NCBI RefSeq assembly: GCF_932294415.1
Contig: NC_065538.1
Location: forward strand, 80,985,834-81,049,833
Origin: Quercus robur
Lineage: Eukaryota; Streptophyta; Magnoliopsida; Fagales; Fagaceae
DNA length: 64,000 nt
Direction: 5' to 3'
Below, in pieces: positions 25,282 to 61,010 of this stretch. Each line of letters starts with the position of its first letter. The first letter of the stretch is position 1. The translations under genes and the position numbers were made by a program. The notes under the pieces are model-generated. The model had not been told where the DNA came from, did not search any database, and saw only the letters and a list, made by a program, of their open reading frames with translations.

Positions 25282-28491
<3,210 letters not shown>

Positions 28492-28799: not shown

Positions 28800-29067
28800 G
28801 TGCCGGTTTGGATCCAACTTATCACGTTCACGTTTTGCTTTTTCTGTGTTTTCCTTCTTTTTTTTTTTAGCCCGCATTTGTTGACTTTTTTACGGTGAAC
28901 AGTGCACCCGTGTACTGTTTACGGACCTACAAATTTCACTTTTAAGCAACTTTTTCATTAAAAATGGGTCTCACGGTATTATTTACACATTTAAAAATTA
29001 TTTTGCTACAGTGTTTTCAGTTTTCAGGTTTCAATTTCAGCAAAATAAGTTCTATCCAAATAGACCC
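28800..29067. mobile_element. PIF/Harbinger-type MITE (268 bp)
   Basis: Left end GTGCCGGTTTGGATCCAACT and right end, reverse-complemented, GGGTCTATTTGGATAGAACT form an inverted repeat. A TAA target duplication is present at 28797-28799 and 29068-29070. The 'GGGTCNGTTTGGATA' end also forms the right terminus of the 9.8-kb Harbinger at 36903-46714, and both contain 'tttgctacagtgttttcag' near the right end. That larger element is therefore a plausible source of mobilising transposase. Lies in the promoter-side flank of the RLK at 25282-28491. Confidence 0.8.
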
Positions 29068-36123: not shown

Positions 36124-36866
36124 CTAACATTTCAAATAAAATATTGGGTTCAATCCCATATCTATTAAAGTACAATTTTTCATTTTCTTTGCACCATTTG
36201 ATGAAGTCGAGTTTTTCTTCTCCTTCTCCAGACTTGTAGAGATGTTATGGCCAACATACTTACAAAACCCACAAGTTCTCTTTTGCTTTCCCAATTCTTT
36301 TCCACCATTCATTCCTTTTCACTTTGGGCGACCTTTCATCTTTGAGAGCGGAGGACAACGAACAAAACAATCTCCATCAATTGCATCATTACCATTAGCA
36401 TCAACCATATTTTCCTTGTCCACCAAATTTTCACCATTCAACACTATCAATTCTTTTCCACCTAATGATGTTTCGCAACACCAACGTTGTGAAAGATACA
36501 AAGATGGAATTCGGTAACAATCGTTGTGAATGAATACACTAAGTGTGTGACGACAAAGTGTACCCCAAAATTCAAAATTCTTGCAACTACAACTAGTCAT
36601 CTCACCGTCCGATAAGACCAAGTGCTTTTGACTAGTTTTTTCTTCATAATATTGCAACACAAATTCAATACCTTTTTCTTGAAGCACCGAATATTGTGTG
36701 GCTCTTCCAAACTCCTCTTGAAAATTTTTGAAAGCATAAGGTGTCAACACACTATGTGCTTGTTCTTCTATCGGTGACAATGTTCTTAAAGAAGAACATC
36801 TACATTTCTCCAACATTGCATCATGTGATTGTGTTTGCTCAATATCTTCAATGGCAAGGTCAACCT
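36124..36866 (-). pseudogene. FAR1-related / MULE-derived pseudogene, C-terminal part (SWIM zinc finger)
   Basis: The minus strand starts after a plausible acceptor (ttttag|GTTGACC at about 36866) and reads LSPIEEQAHSVLTPYAFKNF, then QKHLVLSDGEMTSCSCKNFE and GTLCRHTLSVF, which is the SWIM C-x-C-x(n)-C-x-H zinc-binding motif of FAR1/FHY3 proteins. A tail follows with a C-x2-C-x4-GH knuckle (TCGFCKYVGHN, about 36230-36275) after a frame change near 36315. The N-terminal part of the same gene lies at 46793-48576. The two halves are separated by the Harbinger insertion. FAR1 proteins are transcription factors derived from Mutator transposases; this copy is broken. Confidence 0.85.
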
Positions 36867-37030
36867 AAAATTACAAATTTAAATAATTTAAAGACACATA
36901 AAGTGAGCGTTTGGATAGTCAGTTTTCTGGCGTTTTGCTGCGTTTGCGTTTTGGAGTGCTGGGACCCACGCGCACGCGAGCTGAAGAAAACGCAAGTCTG
37001 GGTGCTGCTGAGAAACGCAAGTTTCCTCGT

Positions 37031-37096
37031 TACGCACCGTTTCACTTATCCTTCTACACGCACCGTTTCATTTAAAAGGCTCTACGCACCGTTTCA
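37031..37096. repeat. Three 26-bp-spaced subterminal repeats of the Harbinger element
   Basis: 'acgcaccgtttca' occurs at about 37032, 37058 and 37084, at an even 26-bp spacing, 130-190 bp inside the left terminus. Regular subterminal repeats are typical binding sites for the ORF1/transposase proteins of this superfamily. The binding role is inferred. Confidence 0.6.
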
Positions 37097-37519
37097 ATGC
37101 AAGAGCTGAAACAATCAACCCATTTTGCCTCTTGCGCGTACTGTTCATGTCTCAAAATGCTGAGGAAAACGGTGCACAAGCAGAAGCTGTCAAAACAGAG
37201 CATCAACGGTACGCTGTCTGTGTAACGGCTATCTCCATTCTCACGGCTTCTGCTTTTTCTCTCAACTACCATCTGTATAATGCTTTCAATCCCCTTCAAT
37301 GCTCCGTCCAATTCGCCTTCAATGTCGTTCACCTACCCACCAACCAGCTTTGGGTCAAAACAGAGCACACATATTGATTACTGCAAACCCAGTAGGCAGA
37401 ACCAAAAGAGAAGATCCCCTCTGTTCAACAAACACTCGAGCTCACCTTCTCTCCGCTTGGGTCATCGTCGCCGCCACTCCCCATCTTTGCATTCACGGGT
37501 ATGTTATTTTCCATGAAGC

Positions 37520-38292
37520 TTCATCATTTTGTGTTTTTTTGGGTTTAACCGTTTGTGTGTGGTTTTTGTATTCAACTTCTGTGTGTTCTCTGTTGTGTTT
37601 TCCATGACACTAGTGTGGGTTTATTGATCCTTTGTCTAATATGAAAACGCTCACTTAGTGCCTCTGTTGGATATACCATTGTTTACTTTGCATTTTTCAG
37701 ATGAGTTTATTTTGCATTTGGATCCATCATTTCTGTTACTTTGCCTAACTGAATGCACCCAAACTGTTTGTTTAAATGCCTCAACGAGTATAGAAGGTAG
37801 TTGTCCAATGCTTCATCAATTTGTGGTTTTTTGGGTTTAACCGTTTGTGTGTGGTTTTTGTATTCAACTGCTCTGTGTGGTTCTATCATATTATTGCATC
37901 ATAATTATGAAATATATATTTGATTTTCTTAATTATAGTCAAATCAAAGTTCAAAATTTGTAAAATTCTTCTTAATAACAGTTTGTAGACTTTTTCCCTA
38001 CTAATCATATAAGGGTGGAATAAGATTTTTTTTGTTGATCTTTTGTTCTGTTTTCCATGACACTAGTGTGGGTTTATTGATCCTTGTCTAATACCATTAT
38101 TTCTCTTAGTGCCTCTGTTGTATTTGGATATACCATTGTTTACTTTGCATTTTTCATATGAGTTTACTTTGCATTTTTCATATGAGTTTACTTTGCATTT
38201 GGATACACCATTTCTGTTACTTTGCCTAACTGATTCTAAAATGCACCCAAACTGTTGGTTTAAATGCCTCAATGAGTATAGAAGGGAGTTGT
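37520..38292 (+). repeat. Duplicated leader segment upstream of ORF1
   Basis: 'gggtttaaccgtttgtgtgt' (37539 and 37836), 'ccatgacactagtgtgggtt' (37602 and 38055) and 'gatataccattgtttacttt' (37668 and 38130) recur in the same order, ending 'gagtatagaagg(g/t)agttg' just before the ORF1 ATG. The second unit is longer, with an extra A/T segment and a local triplication of 'atgagtttactttgcattt'. Confidence 0.8.
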
Positions 38293-38299
38293 AGGAAAA

Positions 38300-39367
38300 A
38301 TGGTTAAGCAGAAGAAATCAATGGAGGGTGGTAGTAATGATGAAAGAGCTGACTGGAGTGACCCTAAGGAACTAGAGGCTTTTTGTCGGTTTTGTGCTGT
38401 TCAAGTCATGGCGGGCCAAAGGAAGCCTACTGGATTTTTGTCCAAAATTGGCCAAAGTGAAGTGATTCGGCAGTTGGGTGAGATTGAAAAAGTAGTGACT
38501 TGGCTGCAGATTAAAAACAAATGGGATCATTTGAGAAAAAGGTGGAAGATTTATACCAAGTGTTTGGAGAATGAGACTGGGTTGGGTTATGATTCTGTAA
38601 CTGGGATGTTTGATGCACCTGATGAGTGGTGGACTCGAAAGATTGCGGTTAGTTTTGATCAATACATAATTGTTAAAAAATTTAGTGTCTAAAACTATAT
38701 TCTTATGTTCTAACTACTGGTTGTCCACATGTAGGCATGTCCCGATGCAAAAACCTTGAGAACGAATGGTTTGCCTAATCGTGACCTTCTGAACATCATG
38801 TTTGGAGGCACGACTGCAACGGGAAAAAATGCATTCTGCACGAGTGGTCCAATACCAACGGCAACCACCGAAGGGTCTGGGGACTCCGGTAATAGCATAG
38901 AATTTGTTGACCCCCAATGTGAACCCGTTGTGAATGTTGACCCAATGGAGGTTGAAGGTCCATCATTGTCGAGGGTAGGACTAGCAGTGAATAAGGGGAA
39001 AGGCCTAGCAACCAGTGTCCACATCTTCAAGCCAATTTCCAAGAAACCAAAAAAAAGGCGTTCAACCGCGCAAGAGATGTCGGACTCTTTGAAGAGTATC
39101 TCAAATGTTATTGTTGAAAGATCTAGTCTAAGTGCCCGTACACCATCTGCTCCCACAGCAACGGCTCAGGTTAAAGAAATTATGGACATGGTGTTGAGTC
39201 TTCCTGGGGTGTACTCGGGTCATTACCTTCATTTGTTCAGCACTATCTACTTCATGGAAAAAGAGTCGGGTAGACACATGTTTGCAGCACTTTCCGATAA
39301 CAAGGATATCCAGCTAAAGTGGCTAGAAAAAGAGTACCAAAGGCACCCTGATTATCATTTTTCGTGA
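38300..39367 (+). CDS. Harbinger ORF1, Myb/SANT-like DNA-binding protein (two exons)
   Basis: Exon 1 38300-38647, exon 2 38735-39367 (GT at 38648, AG at 38733-38734). Joined they give 326 codons plus stop with no interruption. The N-terminus carries the plant Myb/SANT-like (Myb_DNA-bind_3) pattern: FCRFCAVQVMAGQRKPTGF, WLQIKNKWDHLRKRWKIYTK and FDAPDEWW (residues about 32-112). A basic stretch KPKKRR (about 217-222) could act as a nuclear signal. The C-terminus has conserved FSTIYFMEKESGRHMFAALS and ends at about 39367. In PIF/Harbinger elements ORF1 binds the ends and brings the transposase into the nucleus. It shares strand and element with the transposase 2 kb downstream. Alternative: a domesticated host MSL gene, unlikely given the context. 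Confidence 0.85.
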
Positions 39368-39769
39368 AGGAACAATAGATTGTCTCGATAGGGTTGTGTA
39401 GGCTTGGTGTAGTAATCAAACTTTCAGTGTTGTATCTATTGCACTATTATATTTCTTTCTTTTTTATTCGTAGGAACTAATGCTTGTTATGAGTGTGTAT
39501 GTAAGACAATGCTCATCATTCCTATGTGTTTGAGCTATATTTATATATGTTTGTCCAATGCGTCTTTTATCTGAATTTTGCATTTAATATTTTAGAATTC
39601 AGCCCTTCTCTTGCTGGTAACTGGAGTTTGTGATGGATGGTTGACTTTGCTAGACGCAAGTTTTATATTAATGGAGAAAATGAGCCATTTCACAGTTTTG
39701 GTAATAAGAGCTGCCCTGTGTGATTTCGTACATCTGTTGGTCTGCATATTTTTTGAGATGCCTGCATAT

Positions 39770-40640
39770 TGCTACCTGCATTGCTGGTTCTGTATTGCTG
39801 GTTCTGTATCTGTATTGCTGTCTGTATTGCTGGTTCTGTATTGCTGTCTGTATTGCTGGTTCTGTATTGCTGGTTCTGTATTGCTGTCTGTATTGCTGGT
39901 TCTGTATTGCTGTCTGTATTGCTGTCTGTATTGCTGTCTGCATATTTTTTTTATTTTTGAAATCAAAGATTATTTATTTCATGAAATTTGTGGAGTGGCT
40001 TTTGAGAATGTTTGCTGGTTCTGTTTGCTGGTTCTGTATTGCTGGTCTGTATTGCTGGTTCTGTATTGCTGTCTGTATTGCTGGTTCTGTATTGCTGTCT
40101 GCATATATTTTTTTTTTTTTAAATCAAAGATTATTTATTTCATGAAATTTGTCGAGTGAAATAAGAGAATGTTTGCTGGTTCTGTATTGCTGGTTCTGTA
40201 TCTGTATTGCTGTCTGTATTGCTGGTTCTGTATTGCTGTCTGTATTGCTGGTTCTGTATTGCTGTCTGTATTGCTGTCTGTATTGCTGGTTCTGTATTGC
40301 TGTCTGTATTGCTGGTTCTGTATTGCTGTCTGTATTGCTGTCTGTATTGCTGTCTGTATTGCTGGTTCTGTATTGCTGTCTGTATTGCTGTCTGTATTGC
40401 TGGTTCTGTATTGCTGTCTGCATATTTTTTTTATTTTTGAAATCAAAGATTATTTATTTCATGAAATTTGTGGAGTGGCTTTTGAGAATGTTTGCTGGTT
40501 CTGTTTGCTGGTTCTGTATTGCTGCCTGCATATTTTTTTTATTTTTTAAATCAAAGATTATTTATTTCATGAAATTTGTGGAGTGGCTTTTGAGAATGTT
40601 TGCTGGTTCTGTTTGCTGGTTCTGTATTGCTGCCTGCTTA
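39770..40640 (+). repeat. Higher-order minisatellite (14/12-bp units) between ORF1 and transposase
   Basis: Alternating TTGCTGGTTCTGTA and TTGCTGTCTGTA units occur in dozens of copies. Four blocks of a longer spacer interrupt them ('tcaaagattatttatttcatgaaattt' in parts near 39962, 40126, 40443 and 40551), followed by 'gagaatgtttgctggttctg'. This is a nested repeat-of-repeats. It creates long but meaningless frames on both strands (YCWFCIAVCIAG-like or QTAIQNQQYRQQ-like). Confidence 0.95.
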
Positions 40641-41328
40641 ACTGTTTAATATTTGCTTAACTGTCAAAGAAACCAAATAGAGAATGTTTTGAGCCGGCAC
40701 TATAGAAAAGGAAAGTGCCGGGCCTTTTAGAGTTTTATGCAATGTGAAATAATAACAGCAACAAAGCATCTAAATTTGATTTTAGGAGTTATTATGCCAC
40801 AATTTGTTTTTTGGTTTAATGGTAGTCATCTTAAAATTTTGTCCAGAAGAGCATGCTCATTGTTAGAGTTTGTAACTTTTGAAATGTCCCCATAACTCCA
40901 ATGGCTAGTCATATGAGTTAGCCCAATTTCATACCTTTTTATGTAATTAGTGTTTTGACAACCTTTCTATTGAGGTGTATTTTAAAGTAAGCTTGTTTTT
41001 GACATCCTTTGTTTTCTCAATGACCATGTTTTCTACAGAAAGTTATATTAGTTGCAACATTCAGCTTGAGGTGGTTTTGTTTGGTTGGCCAAATATGAAC
41101 CAGTTCATTTTTAGAAACTTCTACATTAAATATATATATATATATATATATATTGATGTCTACCTTGAATGTTTTATTGTTATTGCTTAGACTATTTTCT
41201 GATTATTATTTTTTATTGGTTGTATAGCATTAGATATCATCCGTATTTCAAGGCTCTGAATTGTAAGCTCGATATCTTTTGGATCATTGTTCAATATCTA
41301 TAAAGCAGTCTCAAGGTATACAAAAAGG

Positions 41329-42955
41329 ATGGATTTGCTAAACGACTCATCTGATTCCCAGCACAAGTGAGTTTCTATACTTTCCCTTGTAGATGTGAAT
41401 CTATAATTTTTAGAAATATTGGATGAAATCATGAAAGCATATGCTTAGAATTGTTAATTTATTGGTACGACCATAGTTTGAGCCTAGTACCAGTTTGAGT
41501 TCCAATAAAATTTAACAACTTGTTTTTAGGTTACATATTATAGTATCACATGAATAAATGTACATGCAATTAAAGTCGGTAACATATGCAGTGACGCAGA
41601 CTTCGATCTGAGTGACGACATTGTACTCGCAGCATATCTAGCCGGGTGTGCATGTCTAGCTTACGTGAATACCTATATGACTAAAGTACCATTGCATACG
41701 AATATACAAACTGGCTTAGAATGGGTACAATATATTTTAACTGGACATGAGAAGAAATGTCGAAGAATTTTTAGAATGTCAAGCTATGTGTTTAGACAAT
41801 TGTGTAATACACTGCGCCAGTATGGATATTACGGTACCAGAGGTGTTTGCGTGGAAGAGTCTCTGGCAATGACATTGATGATACTTGGTCATGGTGAGGG
41901 TAACAGAATGGTGCAGGAAAGATTTCAGCACTCGGGTGAGACAGTGCATCGACACATGGGCACGGTAGTTACATTATTAGCCACCGTTATGGCACGGGAC
42001 ATTATCCAACCTGCTGATCGTACATTTCGGGACGTGCCAGAACATATTCAACATTCAGATCGATATTGGCCACATTTTAAGGTATTTTGTGAATTTAGTA
42101 TCTTCACTTGATTTAAGTTAAATTATCTTTATGGTCATACTACGTATTTTATTTCACATGGTATTTTTGTCCCAATGATTAGGGTTGCATTGGTGCAATT
42201 GATGGGGTCCATGTCCCCGTGGTCATTGATGTTAAGGACCAGCTCCCATACTATGGCAGGAAGGGGATCACCACAACAAATTGCATGTGCGCATGTGACT
42301 TTGACATGAAGTTCACATTCGCATGTGTTGGATGGGAAGGATCGGCGCATGACACGAGGATTTTTTACAGCTGCGTCAATAATGAGAGTTACAACTTTCC
42401 GAACGCTCCAGCTGGTTTGTAAATATTCAGTTTAATTACAGTATTAAAGTATGTATTAATGTAGTGAAAATACTAATGTAATAAACGTTTTCATTTGCAG
42501 GGAAGTATTATTTGGTTGATTCAGGATACCCTATGAGGAAAGGGTTCCTTGCACCATATAAGGGGGAGAGGTACCACATTGGAGAATTTCGGCCTTCTGA
42601 AGTGCTGCATCGTCCAGAGGAGAGGTTTAATTATCTCCATTCATCACTCCGTTCAGTCATAGAACGAACTTTTGGAGTTTGGAAGAATAAATGGAGAATT
42701 TTGAGACATATGCCACCTTTTAAGATGCACACTCAAAACTTGGTCATTGTTGCTACAATGGTTCTTCACAATCTCGTTAGAACACATGAGATAAACAATG
42801 ATGCTGAATGTTCAGGATCTACAGAGGCCACATCATTTGGTAGTGAGACAGGTCATTACGATGCCATGGCAGAAACAATCTCAATCTTGGACGAACCTCA
42901 GATGAAACAGGTTCGTATGCGTATCACAAGATCGATATGTGCGGACGATAACTGA
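41329..42955 (+). CDS. PIF/Harbinger DDE transposase (four exons, apparently intact)
   Basis: Exons 41329-41366, 41592-42081, 42183-42414, 42501-42955, all GT-AG, total 1215 nt = 404 codons plus stop. DDE_Tnp_4-type nuclease: first Asp in GCIGAIDGVHVP (D183), second Asp in GWEGSAHDTRIF (D233), Glu in RSVIERTFGVWKNKW (E308). Upstream is a helix-turn-helix-like region, RIFRMSSYVFRQLCNTLRQY and VEESLAMTLMILGHGEGNR (about 91-145), then GETVHRHMGTVV. All three catalytic residues and all splice junctions are present, and no stop or frame change was found. Start chosen at the only upstream ATG that keeps frame through the first intron. In this superfamily the transposase works with the Myb-like ORF1 and cuts at 3-bp A/T-rich targets. 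Whether it is expressed is unknown. Confidence 0.9.
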
Positions 42956-43599
42956 CTTTTGTGGGGATCATAACTGATGGTTTTTTGAGTTCGTGGATTT
43001 GTTTTGTTATGAATCATAAGGATCAAGTGTTAAATCTGTATCTTAGAAACTTTCAGGACACTTGATAGTTTATCCAAATTCACACAAAAAGTGTTTTGTT
43101 GTTGGCACCTTTTTATGTATTTTTCACAAGTACAAATAAGACCAATTATCACTTTCGTACTACAGTGCTCGCATTGTACTCTTTCTGATACGTTAGTGTG
43201 AAAAGATGAAGTTCACACTCAAAACAGATTTCCAATGAGTTTTAAAATAAATTTGCATAATATAAAGGTAAAAACAAATACACAACGTGTTCAAATAGAT
43301 TGTAAAATATTCCAAATAAATGACATTAATCAGGAAACTTGATTTTAAAAAAAAGCCATTCAGGCAAAATAATATCAAATAGAAATGAATCAATAGAATA
43401 ATATCAAATACAAAAGAATCTACATGAACCCCTAAACAAATTTTAGCTATTCCTAATAATTAAGATTGTACTCTTTCTACTACTTTGCAACCTAGCTTTG
43501 GCGAAGAGACACTACTACTCTGTCTAACATTATAGAGCAAAGCATCACGCCCAATTAAAACTACATGAAAAAAGCCATCATATTGGTTTGTACGAAGAT

Positions 43600-43860
43600 C
43601 TAGTCCCTCTGAAAGTCCACACCATCTTGGATCATGGGATACAATTTCTTTACACTTGTATTAACTGCTTCGAGCTCTTTCAAAACTGTAAATCTTCCAG
43701 TTGAATATAAATTTCTAATTTCGCTATTAATGCTAGTTTGCAAACCGGTCAAAGCTTGTGCCCACAAATATTTGTCATCAACATTCAAATCAAACAACTT
43801 TCTTCGAAAATCGGAGAAGGCTGAAGCACAGACACTGCAGATAACAACAGAAAACTTCAA
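43600..43860 (-). pseudogene. 86-codon frame of unknown origin inside the Harbinger element
   Basis: Reads FSDFRRKLFDLNVDDKYLWA then QALTGLQTSINSEIRNLYST and ends KKLYPMIQDGVDFQRD. Its composition is that of a globular, helical protein, unlike the A/T-rich frames around it, and it lies 650 bp past the transposase on the opposite strand. I do not recognise the family. It may be a further captured host exon. Upstream, a 'tgcag|tgtctgtgct' junction at about 43838 could be an acceptor. Confidence 0.4.
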
Positions 43861-43892
43861 TCAATAAAAAACTTCACGCATATTTAGCCCAA

Positions 43893-43958
43893 ATTATCAA
43901 AACCCACCAACAAAACCCAACATCTATAGCATACAAAAGTGCGATTCTAAAAATCAGT

Positions 43959-44001
<43 letters not shown>

Positions 44002-44775
44002 GGAAGACAAATTGACACACATATAACTTATTTCAAAATCGCTCAGCTGTGTCCAAAACAAAGAAGCAACGATGCCGTTTCCCATTCCCAGAGCCACTTT
44101 CTCTTGGGTTTCTTCTTTCCGCTCAAGCTCTCTATCCCATTCCCATCTCCTTCCAATCCCTCTCTGTCTCTCTTCTCTAACTCACTCTCTCACTCCAATG
44201 CGTGCTTTCGATACCCTCACCTCTCTCTCAAATACTACTGCTCATAACCCATCATCCCCTCATACAGTCCATAAAGTAAGTAAGAATCGTTGGAAGCCCA
44301 TGTGTTTGTACTACACGCAAGGAAAGTGCACTAAGGTAAGCCTTAACTCCTAACCCACCAACCCCATCACTCTTAAACCCCCATTTTTTGCTGCATTTGA
44401 TGTTTCTATCTCTCTAGCTTCAGCTTTTGGTTCTTCTATCGTGTACATGTGTTTTTTGTAATTGAATAGCCTTTATGTACTATTGTTGTCAAACAAAGAT
44501 ATTTTTTTCTTTGTTCTGTTTTTTGTCTTTTGGGTTATCAAACTTGGCTTATAATTGACCATGTCGTATTCAATACATATGTCAATAACTACTGAAGTAT
44601 GTGACTGTATAAAAACAGGTAGATAGATAATAAAAAGGATGGAAAGAAAAAAGGGGAAAAGAAACTTGTAATCTTCAAATGCTACTGAATTTCCCATTTC
44701 TTCTTGAATCTTTTTCCCCCTAATTAAACAGATTATCAAAACCCACCAACAAAACCCAACATCTATAGCATACAA
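43893..44775 (+). repeat. 44-bp direct repeats flanking a captured exon
   Basis: 43893-43936 and 44732-44775 are identical over 44 bp ('attatcaaaacccaccaaca' ... 'atctatagcatacaa'). They enclose a long A-run (43964-43999) and the captured exon at 44072-44335. They could be a very large target duplication, or the scar of a duplicative repair event that brought the exon in. Confidence 0.9.
44072..44335 (+). pseudogene. Captured host first exon (CLYYTQGKC-type), identity uncertain
   Basis: 88-codon frame from ATG at 44072 to a consensus donor (ACTAAG|GTAAGC at 44335). The N-terminus is Ser/Arg-rich and acid-free (FSWVSSFRSSSLSHSHLLP), like an organelle transit peptide. The end, NRWKPMCLYYTQGKCTK, is well conserved in style and would continue across the intron. 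I recognise the pattern as belonging to a plant gene with a C-x(7)-C motif but cannot name it. There is no second exon in the element, so a fragment. Confidence 0.5.
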
Positions 44776-46232
44776 GATAAACAAAAAGAACTTATGCATG
44801 TGTGTGAGTACATATACAAAAATGGATACATAAAAAATTCTATATGTAGATGAAGATCTGAAAAAAGAAGTTATTGGAGCTGGGAAAATTAGGGTTTTTG
44901 GAGGTGGAAAGTGGGGAGAGAGGAGGACTCACCTTGGACTTTGAAGAATTTGAAAAACATGTTCTCTTTCTCTCTCTGTGTTTCTCTGATCAAACCTTGG
45001 CTTGGTGTGAGTGTGGTCTTTTTTTCTCGGGGGCTGAATGTAATCAAAAACTATCAGAATATCTAATAATAATATATCGAGCAAATTCACACTGATGTCC
45101 AAGAAAAACCAGCAGAAAAACCATAAGACAAAGCACCAATTTCATGCACTTATTTGAACACGTCTTTAACTAATTTATGCACATGGGCTAAGTAAGTAAC
45201 TGACTGCAAGCTGTGTGCATCTCAATAAAATTCATAACCAACAATCCAGTATTACTTTAACCCAAAGCACATAATAACAATCCAGTAATCCACATATAAA
45301 TCGTATCATCTTCAAAAGCAGGATATTTAAGAATAATATAGGATGCTATCAATCCAGTATTACCTTATGTTACGAATTTTATAATGGCAAACTTTTCCAT
45401 AATGAAAGTATGAATGAATCTGCCTTCCTTTGCAACTACATTCAGGAAATGAAAAGGACTCAGATTTCACACTCCAGTCCACACATTTCAGGTATAAAAC
45501 CTCTAGCTCTAAAAAACCAATAGGGTCAGGACTCAGCTCTATCAGATTATTCTAGCAATCCACAATCCCTAATCAAAGGAGAAAGATCATCTAGAAAATA
45601 TTAAAAATAATAATTCATGAAATGCATATGATAAATGTCTTTAAAATATTTAAATGCTAAAGTCACTCAACACCAGTCCGGCAATGCCCTGTTACTTGGA
45701 AAGTGCATTTTTATCAAAGTGCAAAACTCTTTTTCATTTGAAGCACAGAATGAAGAACACCACAATTGAAAATCAGATAAAGAGAGGGCATTCACAATTC
45801 TAACATCTTTGTTGAGAATATTTGGGACCACAGTATATGTCAAAAATAAAATTAAAAGAAAAACATTGTCAAACGAAACAGAGAGATTGAAAGAAACATT
45901 ACAGTTTCTGAGCAACCATTGCCAGCCTTCTGAACACTTTCAATGGTTAACTGAAACAATTAAATTATGGGCACTGCAAAAGACAAAACCAATGGATTTT
46001 ATCACTGGGAAAAAAAAAAATTAAAAAAAAAAAAAAAAACGGAGCAACATTTATGGAATTATAAAAATCGATTGGAAAGGGGAAAAAATTACCTTCAGTA
46101 CTGGGTAATATGACATCCATTTGCAGATAAAACCAAAAATCGAAAAATTCAATATCACTAACCCATTTGCAAGATACCCTGACCGCATGTGTTGTGTTCA
46201 ATTTCCGGTGGGAGCTCGGAGCCGAAAATCTC
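44776..46232. other. Interior of the Harbinger element without recognised gene
   Basis: Mostly A/T-rich. Short frames at 44874-45095 and 45667-45915 have no domain I recognise. The A-run near 46010-46040 is low complexity. Confidence 0.5.
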
Positions 46233-46554
46233 GGCGGTGCCGTTGAGGAGGGTCCGATGGTGCACACCAGCTTGGTCCTTCGGGTGCTCCTGAACCCGTT
46301 CTCTTTCAGCTCCGTCTCAGTGACGGCGTCCACTTCTATGGAACCCGCCGCCACCGGGTACTCCTCCTCACGAGATATTACAGCGCCTTTGCCGTTATCG
46401 GAGACAAGGAGTGGGGAAGATGAGTCGAGATCTGAGGAGGAGGAGGAGGAGGCTCTGATTGAGATGAGAGGGAAGCGGCGATTGTAGGTGGTGGAACTCT
46501 CGGATGGGCGTGGAACTCTCCGCTTCAGAGGCTTAGCTAGGTACGGTGAGGAGT
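46233..46554 (-). pseudogene. Captured N-terminus of plastidial pyruvate kinase beta subunit (PKP2-like)
   Basis: The minus strand reads continuously about 107 codons: a transit-peptide segment ([40 protein letters not shown]), a linker ([20 protein letters not shown]) and the start of the mature enzyme ([20 protein letters not shown]). TKLVCTIGP is the conserved first strand of pyruvate kinase. The stretch before it matches plastidial beta-type isoforms (from memory). Homology stops right after TIGP, long before the catalytic core, so no enzyme can be made. It lies within 160 bp of the right terminus of the Harbinger element, oriented outward-to-inward. GC content is clearly higher than the surrounding DNA. 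Confidence 0.8.
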
Positions 46555-46792
46555 GGAAAAGAAAATCAGAGAAAAATTTTGTAATTTATATGCTACAGTA
46601 ACTTCAGCAGCGCTACAGTGCTTTCAGCTAAATTTGGGACACGCGTTTTCCTACTTATTTGCTACAGTGTTTTCAGCAACTTTCAGCAACAATAAGCTGT
46701 ATCCAAACGGACCCAAAGACTACAAATTTGTAATTAATTTAAAGACACATAAAGACTACAAATGTTAACAAATAAAAAAAATAAATCAAATT

Positions 46793-48576
46793 CTACAATA
46801 AAGGAAAGCAATGATAAATAATGACTTGTTCAATAAATTGGGTCAAGTTTATGTGGGAACTAACAAACCGTTTGATAAATGCATTTACACATTCGGATCT
46901 TCTGGTTATTGTCATTCCCCCAAAAAAATAGTCATGAAGGTAACAAGGTACCCAAAAATGCTTGATTTGATATAAACCACTTACATGCTTGTTGGTAAGC
47001 ATGTCATATTTTGCCATAACTTGAGACCATTGATGCTCAAATTATTCACATGAGTCTAACTTATATAGCTTGTAGAAATCCATGCACCAATTTGAATATT
47101 GACTACGAAGAATTGCCGTAAACCAACCACTAAATTTAGCAGTAATGTGCCATATACAAAAAGCATGTTTTGTGGATGGCAATTCTTTTGATATTGCCTT
47201 TGTAATCTATAGATCTTGGTGTATTAAAATTGCCTTAGGTGACTTCTTCATTAAATTTGCAAAAGTCTATTAATCAAATACAAAGTTATTAGCACATGAA
47301 AAAATATAGAAGGATATATACCATTAAACTACTAGTTAATCAAATAAAATTGAAAAATAATTGCACAACCTTACAAGATTATTAAATAATTTACGTACCT
47401 TCATTAACCATTGAAATGCACTAGTTGTTTCATTTCGAAGTGCACAACCAAAGAGAATTATCTTTCCATGATTATTGATACCAACAAAAATACCAAAAGG
47501 CATGTCATATGCATTTACTTTGTAAGTAGTATAAAAAAACAACCACATCTCCATATTTTTGGCACCAATTAAAACAAGGAGTAGGTGCCTAAAAAATATG
47601 CTCCAACCTACTAACTTTATCAATTGTAAATACATATTGAAACTTAGAATTCTTTTCCTTAGCAACTTTGTACAATTGTAAGAGATCCATAGCATAATTC
47701 ATTGCATGCATCCTTCTCATTTTCACATAAAGTTTATGGATATCTCTTTTAAAAATGGAAGATCTCCATGCTTCACAACTTTCTCAAGCTCCATAACACG
47801 TATTATTTGCATACCGAAAGTCCACACTTTTTCAATAAGAAAATGCGATCTTTATCTTCTTGAGTGATAACTCGATTGGCCGGAAGAAATCTCACTTCCA
47901 AATGGGACAACAATTCATGATTGTGATCTATAACAAACTTAGTGACATGCCATTCTCGTGGAAAAATGTCAAATGCCTTTCGCAATGTGATTCTTAAATG
48001 AGCTTTGCGTCCACATTTTGTAGATATCCTATTTTGTTGCTCCTTACATGAATCCACTCTTTTTAATTGTTGTCTACCTTCTCGACGACAAAAGAAATCA
48101 CATCTTACATTTTCTCCATTTTTTGTGACAAAACGACCTTTTCGAATTGTAACACCATATCAATTTGCATAATTTTTATAGAAAATGAAATCCTCTTCTT
48201 CACTAAGAAAACATTGACCAACAAAAGGTTCAAACTCATTCTCTATTGAATTAATATCTTCATTTTCTTCAATAACTCCTATTTCTGCCATTGGATATTC
48301 ATTCCAAACCACTATTTCCTCCCCACAAATGTCATTATTTTCTCCATCATTGGGAAGCTCATTTAAGTCAACACAATTCCTTGAAACTCTTTGATAAATC
48401 TTACTTGCAATTACAATATCATTAATCTGTTCTATGTTGTAACAAGGATTAAAAAAATAATAAAAATCAACATCATATTTCAATATATTTGAAAAACAAA
48501 TTAAGAACAAAAGAAATATATGTACCTTATATATAATTTCTTGAACACTATATTCTTGTAGACATTCTTTGATCAT
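46793..48576 (-). pseudogene. FAR1-related / MULE-derived pseudogene, N-terminal and transposase-core part
   Basis: In order on the minus strand: acidic N-terminus with FEPFVGQCFLSEEEDFIFYK (about 48170-48230); the FAR1 DNA-binding region TKCGRKAHLRITLRK and WHVTKFVIDHNHELLSHLEV (about 47900-48020); the MULE core AYDMPFGIFVGINNHGKIIL then FGCALRNETTSAFQWLMKV (about 47400-47520); IWHITAKFSGWF (about 47130); and TITRRSECVNAFIKRFVSSH followed by QFIEQ (about 46800-46900). It contains an in-frame TGA near 48158, a frame change near 47805 and others, so it is a pseudogene. A GT after FIEQ could be the donor of the intron whose acceptor is at 36866. The Harbinger element sits in that intron. Confidence 0.85.
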
Positions 48577-52633: not shown

Positions 52634-55600
52634 CTAACGACCCTCTAACAATGTATCAGTTATCTCATTTGAACTGGAATTCATTCTATCATTTAATGAT
52701 GGATATGTCTCTGGAAGGCACCTTTCTGCATAAAATCCGGGTCGTCCAGGCTGAGCTAACAACACACTTTCACTATCCAACATCAAAAGCACAGATGGCA
52801 TTGTTGGCCTCTCTTCAGGGCGCTGTTGGACACACAAAAGACCCACTTGAATATATCTTAGTGCTTCAGAAGCAGGGAATTGATTCTCAAGCAACACATC
52901 CATTAGGTCCAAGGCGTTTCCTTCTTGCCAAAGTTTCCATGCCTAAAACAATATCAAGTTATATCAAAGCACAAAAATAAAATTTCCCTGTAAAGTAAAA
53001 ATTATTTTCAACAATTTGGATAGGATCATATTTATTTTACTCACATGACCAAGGAGATTTAGTTTGTGGTCTGGATGAAAAAACAGCCTGTTCTTCTTGC
53101 CACTGAGCATCTCTAACAGTATAACACCAAAGCTAAAAACATCAGATTTGAAAGAAAAAAGTCCATCTATTGCGTACTCTGGAGACATATAGCCACTGCA
53201 TCCAACACAAAAAAGAGAGATTTTAGTAGCAAAATACCAAAATGATGTAAATAAGGTAAGCATGTGTTTACTCACTAAGTTCCAACAACTCTCTTCGTCT
53301 TTGATTCAGTTTGATTTCCACCAAATATTCTTGCCATTCCAAAATCTGAAATTTTGGGATTCATTTCACTGTCTAACAGAATATTGCTGACTTTTAGATC
53401 CCTATGGATTACTCTGAGTCTTGAATCTCTATGAAGATAAAGAAGTCCTCGAGCTATCCCAATAACAATGTCTAATCTCTTTTGCCAGTTGAGTGAACGA
53501 CGCCTTGCTTCATCTGCCCAATCATTACATTGTATACAAGTTGACTTCCAATGGTTTGAAACTATGGCATTTTAGCCAGTTTGGAAATATAACTTATAGG
53601 ACTAGAAAATCAATAAGAGAGACCAAATGACCAATATGCTGCACTAAATTCAAACATACATATGTTTGTGTGTGTGCGTGTATGTGAGAGTGAGAGAGAG
53701 AGAGAGAGAGAGATACAAACCAAAGATTAAGGAGTCTAAGCTTCTGTTTGGCATGTACTCATAGATTAACATTCTTTCTTCTCCTTGAATGCAACAACCT
53801 AGAAGCTTTACAAGGTTCCGATGTTGAAGTTGGGAGATCAAGATGACCTCATTCTTAAACTCCTGTAGGCCTTGTCCAGAATTTTCTGCAAGCCTCTTTA
53901 CTGCTATTTCTTGCCCTGATAGTAGCTCACCCTACAATCATAACAAGAAAGTGCTTATAAAGAAAATTGCAGCTTGTAGGGCCATTTTAGGATTTTGAAA
54001 GTGTCTGAATGAGAACCAGCCGGTGAAACTGTTATATTTTACCTTGTACACTAGGCCAAATCCACCTGCTCCAATCTTATTGGCGGCAGAGAAGTTGTTT
54101 GTGGCAGCTTCAATGGTAGCCATATCGAATAATGGGAGCTCAAGGTCATCCCTTTCTCCTTCAACTCCACTAACGTTTGCTTGATTATCTGGCCTACTGG
54201 CTATTTACAAGAACACAGACAACTTAATAAAAATGATAGGATTGAAACTTCCATGAAATGCTACAATGGAACTATCAGAATTTTGTGGCAAATTTACATT
54301 TGTTTCTTCTCGTCTTCCAAATAATGAACCAGCTGATTGAAGCCAATATGATCACTGCTGAAGCCACAGAAACAGTCACTGCAATTATTATTCGCCTCTG
54401 CTTCTTACTTCTATCAGCATTTGCCTCTAACAACCACAAACAAAAAATAATACAGTATATTAGTTGTTTCAATAATTATAGAATAAAATAGGCAATAGTT
54501 GACCAATTAAGTTAAAATACAAATAGTCATAAGACAACATTTCCATCCCAGCTCCATGTTAGGCCAGAGCTGGGCTGTTTCGAGCCTTTCTTGAGCAAAC
54601 ACAATGCTTGGTTTAAGAGTCTATCATGACAGCATGTGTGGTGAGACAAGCATGTTCATTGCCTATAACAGCAAAGTAGAGATCTTAAGATTATAACAAC
54701 AACAAAGCCTTAGTCCCAAGTTTTGAGTTCCCTAAATAAATTACAGCTGAAAACTGAGAGGTAAAGGTCACAGACTCAAGAATTCTTACCTAATTCTGAA
54801 GCTGCCACTCTCACATAGAGATCTTGCCCATAATTAGCAACCTCTCTGATATCAAGTAGATCTCCAAACCAGGTCACACAGCCACTGCCACTGCCACTGA
54901 TGTCCAGTTTAGCATAAGCCGTACAAGAGCAATTCTCCAAGCACTCTGCCTCACAATCTTCAATACTCATACTGACATTTACGCTAAATTGTGATGCATC
55001 TGGCAGTTTCAATCCTGTTAACTTGATAAATCCCTCTCCATTTCTGCAAATACGATGATCATTTCGAACACATCCATCTAACCAATCAAGCAATTTCCAG
55101 TCTTGGGGTGATTTGGGTTTAAAACCCTTTAAGCACTCACAATACAGTGTATTGTTAACTTTACAGCTACCATAACTACCACAATAACCATAACTGTCAC
55201 AGCGGTCTTCTTGAACTGTGAACAAGAGATTCCAACTAGAGTCTTTATCATTCCAAGAGAAATGCTGAACGAGACCGGATTGACCCAACACAAATCTTGA
55301 AGTGATATTGTCTATAGTTTCATATATATAATAAACTTCTTCAGCACTAGAGACAAATATGGGTTTGAAAACCGTGTTTGCCACCAGAATTTGATCGCCA
55401 CTAAATTGTTCCCCATACCAAGGCCCACTTCGGAATAGCTTCTTTGATCCTTGACGAAGAACAAGTTGAGGAAGCCCACGGGGATCCACACTGTAAGTGT
55501 AGTCTCCAGGAGAAGGATCATCTGAGCTTTTCCATGACCTCAAAGATCGATTCAACCCACTTGTCAAGTTCCACCCAAGCTTCATGGTAGGCAACAAAGT

Positions 55601-56071
55601 ATCATATGGATGATCAAAGCTCTGCCATAGGTAGTTCTCAGAGTTGTCATCACCCATATCTTTCAGAACAAGATTTCCAGAGTCTAAAAGCTGTACAACT
55701 GGACTTCTTGCTGCTTGTGAAATATTTGAAGACCAAACAATGCTTCTTGATTGATTGAGAAGAACAAGATTTCCATCATAGTTGAATGTTAAGAAACCAG
55801 AAGAATTCTGAAGAGGGCTGTCTCTGTTTGCAACCCAAACTTTAGTCTTACCTGGGATATTCTTGTACCATATTCCTAAATATAGATCACCAGAACCTCC
55901 AGCACTGAAGAAGCCAAGTTCAAATTTTTGGCCTGATGAAACCAATGTTTGGCTATCATTCATGGACTGTGTTGCAGTTATGCTGTCAGCTGCAATTGAA
56001 CTTTTTGGAAACAAGGATATCAAAGTGAAAGAAATAGTGAGAAACAAGAGGCTGTCTTTCTGCTTCTCCAT
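52634..56071 (-). CDS. SD1-type G-type lectin S-receptor-like serine/threonine-protein kinase (complete)
   Basis: Exons 56071-54790, 54426-54298, 54200-54043, 53931-53721, 53513-53276, 53195-53045, 52942-52634. All are GT-AG and total 2478 nt = 825 codons plus stop. Signal peptide about 1-27. B-lectin domain with [18 protein letters not shown] and [11 protein letters not shown]-locus glycoprotein region with [22 protein letters not shown]-like Cys cluster [16 protein letters not shown] domain [17 protein letters not shown] helix [20 protein letters not shown]. Kinase with [30 protein letters not shown] and the C-terminal DUF3403-like tail ending ITDTLLEGR. It is an RD kinase, so probably active. 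Such plasma-membrane receptors act in defence and symbiosis signalling; the ligand is unknown. The promoter lies right of 56071, and the next RLK on the same strand starts its 3' end 1.2 kb away. Start ATG is followed by a good hydrophobic signal. Confidence 0.95.
53688..53713. repeat. (GA)n microsatellite in RLK intron 4
   Basis: A (GT)n stretch followed by about 10 GA repeats directly 3' of exon 4 of the intact RLK, starting 8 bp from the donor. Confidence 0.85.

Positions 56072-57313: not shown

Positions 57314-61010
<3,697 letters not shown>

Follow-up and report, generated by a model that had tools for sequence, protein, structure and literature searches.

Capture of gene pieces by plant DNA transposons has mostly been argued from end products. 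The closest described system is the PIF family Pifvine-3 of grapevine, which has a transposase and ORF1 and in which members very often have an extended 5' region, up to 3.5 kb in length, that mostly corresponds to exons and introns of the host (Benjak et al. 2008, PMC2528002; this and the other papers are cited from partial texts). In some cases, the host region is common to several Pifvine-3 copies, which the authors take as a sign that these elements could still transpose (PMC2528002). The same paper describes transposase-bearing MULE and CACTA elements, from other superfamilies, that contain host sequence of the ULP or PPR type. Here, we analyzed a PIF/Harbinger element of Quercus robur in a window of 64,000 bp, the whole stretch under study, which is part of contig C5 in an assembly of 785.7 Mb and 42 contigs. 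The element is a further case of a transposase-bearing PIF element with host cargo, already known from grapevine since 2008. A sequence-only reading of the window had regarded an autonomous-looking cargo carrier as unusual; such an element is indeed present, but it is not unprecedented. What is new is the resolved history, since the capture order and most of the source genes are readable from the genome. Whereas Pifvine-3 has its cargo in the 5' region, the oak element carries it downstream of the transposase, and its capture order, the other state of its slots, its joints, and a deletion derivative are resolved.

Two further systems are similar in part. Pack-TYPE elements also hold gene fragments between transposon ends, with PIF-type examples in maize and rice, but they are defined as non-autonomous (PMC8903248), whereas the window element and a sibling on contig C6 (C6a) have an intact-looking transposase and one relative, C37a, has none. 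MtMaster and MtPH-A6 of Medicago share with the oak element ORF1, a transposase, and a 3-bp duplication, and their terminal inverted repeats (TIRs), GTGYRTGTTTGGYA and GGGTCCGTTTGG, resemble its left and right ends; their duplications are TTA/TAA, and the partial text of that paper does not contain the words capture, captured, or gene fragment (PMC2213677). Literature searches on oak, Harbinger elements, miniature inverted-repeat transposable elements (MITEs), and gene capture and on ORF1 binding listed no closer case.

We consider it quite probable that the element, a cut-and-paste transposon of the PIF/Harbinger superfamily whose ORF1 and transposase look intact, gained host fragments in at least three steps by gap-repair capture and transposed again after the last one. 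It occupies positions 36903-46714 (9,812 bp, exact coordinates), begins with GTGAGCGTTTGGATA, and ends with TATCCAAACGGACCC. Its TIRs are 15 bp long with 12 matching positions, which fits the superfamily range of 14-25 bp and the GGG/GTG...GTTTGG type (PMC2213677). A 357-base query from the left end gave 30 matches, of which one besides the window, on contig C6, was 100% identical. Ten copies were compared (the window, C6a, C4a, C39a, C1a, C4b, C39b, C37a, C39c, and C35a), eight of them with both ends; the right end of C39c and the left end of C35a were not found within the stretch used. Matching 3-bp duplications flank exactly these ends in all eight two-ended copies, window included (AAA, ATA, TAA, ATA, AAA, AAT, TAT, and TAA). 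Only two are TAA, and the rest (two AAA, two ATA, AAT, and TAT) also consist of A and T, a looser preference than the canonical TAA/TTA. Because random flank 3-mer pairs match at a frequency of 0.028 and the best alternative offset, tested up to 6 bases either side, reaches only 4/8, a chance origin of the ends is very unlikely. The sequence-only reading, which had taken 36903-46714 as one Harbinger element, is thus borne out by exact ends, AAA duplications, and eight concordant copies.

The same comparison bears on a composite structure, in which an autonomous Harbinger element would end near 43085 and the right end would belong to a second, non-autonomous element lying beside it or enclosing it. 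At approximately 43065-43085 there is indeed a string weakly resembling an inverted repeat, TGTGAATTTGGATA (inward reading), but by eye the three bases outside it mismatch those outside the left end. In addition to C6a, the copies C4a, C39a, C1a, C4b, and C39b are continuous past 43086, from the transposase as far as 43893, and C39c extends to 43618. Older copies such as those at C1:2.46, C2:51.43-51.44, C37:9.75, and C40:24.28 Mb hold the transposase, a BPS1-like piece, and the right end in the same order, and the duplications match at 36903 and 46714 in 8/8 copies. We regard the composite as highly improbable. A right end at 43085 is itself rejected in view of the copies that continue past it and the matching duplications at 46714; none of the compared copies ends at about 43085, although no search aimed at such ends was made.

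The right third of the element holds host DNA, as confirmed by surviving source loci elsewhere in the genome, located on C37, C6, C2, and C39. The sequence-only reading had proposed at least two host exon fragments, and more than two are present. The genome search that it suggested, for copies with the same termini and cargo, recovered the sibling C6a (C6:6619217-6628895, duplication ATA), which combines ORF1 and the transposase with the CCCH-like and pyruvate kinase pieces. The ORF1 DNA of C6a and the window is identical across 1,151 bases (38250-39400), and the transposases differ by two amino acids. Across the full length of the element the two copies differ by 31 substitutions, nine of which cluster about a poly-A tract at 43943-43994, and by 11 gaps that fall mainly within the minisatellite. 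Because these are two unlinked insertions with the same genes and cargo, the cargo-bearing form transposed after capture.

Five relatives (C4a, C39a, C1a, C4b, and C39b) share with the window the backbone blocks 36904-40785, 40782-41124, 41122-43893, 44658-46141, and 46498-46714. The relatives hold an extra 0.8-0.9 kb or so at 40782 and approximately 0.23 kb at 41124, both missing from the window and C6a; C37a has the one at 40782. Two slots between the blocks are filled differently. At 43894-44657, the slot in the window and C6a opens with 43 bp copied from elsewhere in the element and continues with a piece (43933-44658) that we take to be from a CCCH-like gene, for which a Pfam search gave no match, while the relatives have 383 bp (three copies) or longer contents of 1,114 and 2,238 bp. 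At 46142-46497, six relatives (the five above and C37a) have 206-207 bp of other DNA, whereas the window and C6a have a C39-matching filler, a 51-bp piece (46201-46251) that is presumably a CLP1-like exon, a pyruvate kinase piece, and then a short repeat of the element's own GTGGAACTCTC. The pyruvate kinase piece is identical to its source at 247/249 positions in the window and 245/249 in C6a, and the source exon matches PF00224 (6.5e-20). We infer from the relatives that host fragments were gained stepwise, in at least three steps with one more transposition after the last, because these copies show an earlier state of two slots.

The joints overlap by a few bases: GGAGG (5 bp) between the CLP1-like and pyruvate kinase pieces, GTGGA between pyruvate kinase and the element's own backbone, ACAA between the self-copy and the CCCH-like piece, and 3 bp between the C39-matching filler and the CLP1-like piece. 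Since the overlaps measure 3-5 bp, each slot draws on several unlinked sources, the sources remain in place, and filler was copied from the element itself, the joints suggest template switching during repair. In the proposed mechanism, ORF1 and transposase would excise the element, which follows from its superfamily membership, and a sister or homologous copy would then serve as the template for repair of the break. Where synthesis stalled, the free end would copy short stretches of unlinked genes via microhomology before returning to the element, a process of interrupted gap repair with template switching of the synthesis-dependent strand annealing type. Because such changes fall outside both genes and ends, the element could stay autonomous and its cargo would be copied along; later internal deletions would turn some copies, as at C37:10870354-10877038, into Pack-like derivatives that are no longer autonomous. 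Filler DNA after DNA-transposon excision has been described in rice (PMC4423477), and homology-dependent repair has been described at PIF/Pong/Harbinger excision sites in yeast (PMC10288884). A model documented for Pack-CACTA (PMC13317346, PMC8903248) offers a different route, in which two nearby copies with complementary terminal deletions move jointly and enclose the DNA between them. The enclosed stretch would be contiguous, whereas the pieces here are short, come from several unlinked contigs with sources in place, and lie inside a backbone whose other state is known. The Pack-TYPE model is possible for the older right-hand backbone and fits the two young slots less well; as an account of the element it is improbable.

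The relative C37a (C37:10870354-10877038, 6,686 bp) helps order the captures. It carries the CCCH-like piece from 44295 onward and keeps the 207-bp slot of the other relatives at the site that holds the pyruvate kinase piece in the window and C6a. It shares 12 derived sites with these two copies (3+1+6+2 over the four regions that it covers, conflicting sites uncounted). An internal deletion between two AGCCCA strings removed 40926-44294, and its ORF1 has two stops. The order of events, as read from these copies, is acquisition of the BPS1-like piece, then of the CCCH-like piece, the split of C37a, the filling of the pyruvate kinase slot, and the jump of the window and C6a. C37a would in effect be a Pack-like element derived from a cargo carrier, having lost the transposase and kept the cargo.

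The BPS1-like piece belongs to an older layer. Its identification comes from a C41 copy with a longer frame, which matches PF05633 at 22.0 bits (cut-off 21.5) and just misses PF03087 at 23.4 bits (cut-off 23.5); the window's own pieces matched neither family in the Pfam search. A known fold for the exon, sought by sequence, gave a best E value of 0.037, which is not convincing. A 241-base query from the block (43600-43840) matched 20 genomic places, 10 at 98-100% and the others at 89-94%. In the four older copies named above, the transposase lies approximately 0.57 kb from this piece and has 73-81% protein identity over the two largest exons. Old subfamilies hold the piece near a diverged transposase, and transposase-bearing elements have therefore long carried it. 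The block 43615-43844 retains 89-90% DNA identity in old subfamilies despite the 73-81% of the transposase, while its neighbor 43456-43618 has 76-77% in six old subfamilies and 87-88% in two others. No sign of protein-level selection was found in the block (10 replacement and two silent changes, window versus the C41 copy); recapture, conversion, or some other constraint are candidate causes of its high identity. The region 44684-45070 is probably also of host origin: 44688-45070 matches C38:14471809-14472184 at 95%, and 44684-44860 matches C39:1161915-1162091 at 99%. A third, minus-strand element gene joining its MFFKFFKVQ start to the BPS1-like exon was considered and rejected. The window's ATGTTTTTC is absent from the six relatives that cover the first exon, four copies (C4a, C1a, C39b, and C37a) have AGG for ATG, and the same 10 to 2 ratio of changes speaks against a gene.

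Both element genes are open across all exons with GT/AG introns, ORF1 matching PF12776 above the cut-off and the transposase being of the DDE_Tnp_4 type (PF13359) with catalytic residues D183, D233, and E308. The proposal of two intact proteins (326 and 404 codons, clean splice sites) was therefore correct. ORF1 is open in 4/10 copies (window, C6a, C4a, and C35a). Among seven copies aligned over the transposase, only the window and C6a have an open gene that retains every splice site; the first acceptor is lost in C39a and C1a, and C4a, C4b, and C39b have a stop codon. C39c, with two stops in exon 2, was left out of this alignment; no transposase match was obtained in C37a, and all that C35a retains is the transposase start. 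Intactness solely in the window and C6a thus holds for the compared copies. Outside them, the two largest transposase exons at C6:38088775-38090137 are free of stops, and the third-exon match includes one TAG, perhaps in an intron; this transposase may be open too. At least 158 related transposase matches occur in the genome (103 of 1123 candidates scored). Two others with near-equal scores, C35:4025741-4027103 and C6:14838995-14840357, are Harbinger transposases 74% and 67% identical to that of the window element over the two largest exons, without stops there, and perhaps represent another young family.

The element looks able to move itself, but several observations weigh against this and against capture by gap repair. 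With related transposases so numerous, the window and C6a could both move in trans. On the branch leading to them, ORF1 has 11 replacement changes and one silent change against a neutral expectation of approximately 2.5 to 1 (fractions 0.691 and 0.274), with no sign of purifying selection on ORF1 along this branch. We infer the repair step from the junctions only, and larger elements are reported to excise less often (PMC10288884), which would weigh against a 9.8-kb carrier. The left end and ORF1 of C37a are nearer to C4a and C39a than to the window by raw distance, the window branch being long. Finally, the nearest match of the CCCH-like piece is approximately 5% divergent besides gaps and a 385-bp part of it occurs at seven further loci at 95-96%, so its direct source is uncertain. 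That part (44276-44660) has nearly the same left boundary at the seven loci and may be carried by another mobile family.

The transposase count and the ORF1 changes would be expected if the window and C6 copies were defective passengers moved in trans, with reading frames still open owing to youth. We consider this rather unlikely: in both copies, but in none of the other five aligned, the transposase reads through with all its splice sites intact, and ORF1 is open in both. The multi-copy 385-bp part and the patchwork setting would instead suit second-hand cargo, captured first by a non-autonomous relative and then passed on by gene conversion, and the clustered terminal substitutions of the two copies fit conversion or error-prone synthesis. 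However, the matches listed for the pyruvate kinase piece (40 of 646 candidates scored) were confined to the window, C6a, and the source gene, and C37a, the sole compared cargo-bearing relative without a transposase, has less cargo rather than more. Second-hand cargo therefore seems a rather poor bet, and stepwise capture by gap repair is the reading that we prefer.

The window and C6 lineage has changed unevenly: ORF1 and the termini changed fast, the termini in clusters, and the transposase hardly at all. Substitutions fixed in the two copies amount to 5.1% at 36904-37500 and 3.3% at 46498-46714, many of them clustered, compared with 0.1-0.35% in the transposase (one replacement and two silent changes on this branch) and 1.6% at 43086-43893. 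The fast terminal change may stem from error-prone synthesis or from conversion by a copy outside the sample, or selection may have acted on how the ends are recognized. As a speculative and doubtful extension, autonomous elements would be the capturing agents through interrupted gap repair, with Pack-type copies arising later by deletion, and the same repair episode or selection would have altered the termini and the DNA-binding ORF1 but left the transposase almost unchanged, so that a copy whose ends are recognized differently split off.

The insertion target differs from the FAR1-like intron of the earlier reading. It is a dispersed repeat with SWIM and MULE domains rather than a single-copy gene, because, of the 42 matches listed for the joined flanks (40 of 43 candidates scored), 35 span the join; the remaining seven include the two flanks of the window itself. 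The spanning matches are paralogues at 77-90%, mostly shorter than the query over the join, and not an empty allele. Joining the flanks without the element and with one AAA gives a 28-bp string twice (once in the window), which recreates a tandem repeat unit. The flanking FAR1-like frames at 36319-36816 and 47336-47695 (SWIM and MULE domains) belong to this repeat.

Table 1 Features of the oak PIF/Harbinger element in window coordinates.
Feature	Position	Strand	Basis
Left target-site duplication AAA	36900..36902		Flank comparison
Left TIR GTGAGCGTTTGGATA	36903..36917	+	Common to copies
ORF1, Myb/SANT-like protein, 326 aa	38300..39367 (exons 38300-38647, 38735-39367)	+	PF12776 5.7e-12
Minisatellite, TTGCTGGTTCTGTA/TTGCTGTCTGTA units	39770..40650 (approximate limits)	+	Length differs, window versus C6 sibling
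DDE transposase, 404 aa	41329..42955 (exons 41329-41366, 41592-42081, 42183-42414, 42501-42955)	+	PF13359 2e-27
Old host fragment, 3' part of BPS1/ROH1-like gene, frame broken in window	43463..43844	-	Domain match on C41 copy
Filler, copy of the element's own 44733-44775 (43 bp), at left edge of CCCH-like fragment	43894..43936	+	Self-match
Captured 5' end of presumed CCCH-like gene (upstream DNA, first exon, part of intron 1)	43933..44658	+	Nearest match C37:25101969-25102614
Probable older host fragment, gene 5' end MFFKFFKVQ/GT	44684..45070	-	Matches on C38, C39
Filler matching C39:39760210-39760243 at 97% (35 bp)	46169..46203	-	Genome match
Presumed CLP1-like exon, 51 bp, 100% to C2:76688698-76688748	46201..46251	-	Genome match
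Pyruvate kinase first exon, 249 bp, 99.2% to C6:54432167-54432415	46247..46495	-	Genome match
Right TIR, inward reading GGGTCCGTTTGGATA	46700..46714	-	12/15 as left
Right target-site duplication AAA	46715..46717		Flank comparison

Other features of the window lie outside the element. A MITE at 28800-29067 has the ends GTGCCGGTTTGGATC and GGGTCTATTTGGATA (read inwards) with TAA on both sides, and its right 66 bases resemble the element's right end. It was rejected as a derivative of the element, with 67 terminal columns at 76% and two short overlapping internal matches, the likeness otherwise being confined to the termini; its mobilization by the element, as proposed in the sequence-only reading, would be conjectural. 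A G-type lectin receptor-like frame (B_lectin, S_locus_glycop, and PAN_2) lies at 54776-56071, with similar frames by eye at 27226-28158 and 59739-61010. Reverse-transcriptase-like frames of the long interspersed nuclear element type, also by eye, are at 245-2817.

In the survey pipeline of the Pack-TYPE study, a transposase match is enough for an element to be taken as autonomous, and its cargo is then uncounted (PMC8903248, partial text), which would explain why cargo carriers are seldom counted. Surveys that set aside every transposase-bearing element would miss such carriers. In the present small family, the slots can be seen both before and after capture, source loci survive, and one derivative has lost its transposase but kept cargo; rival capture models therefore give different, checkable predictions in it.

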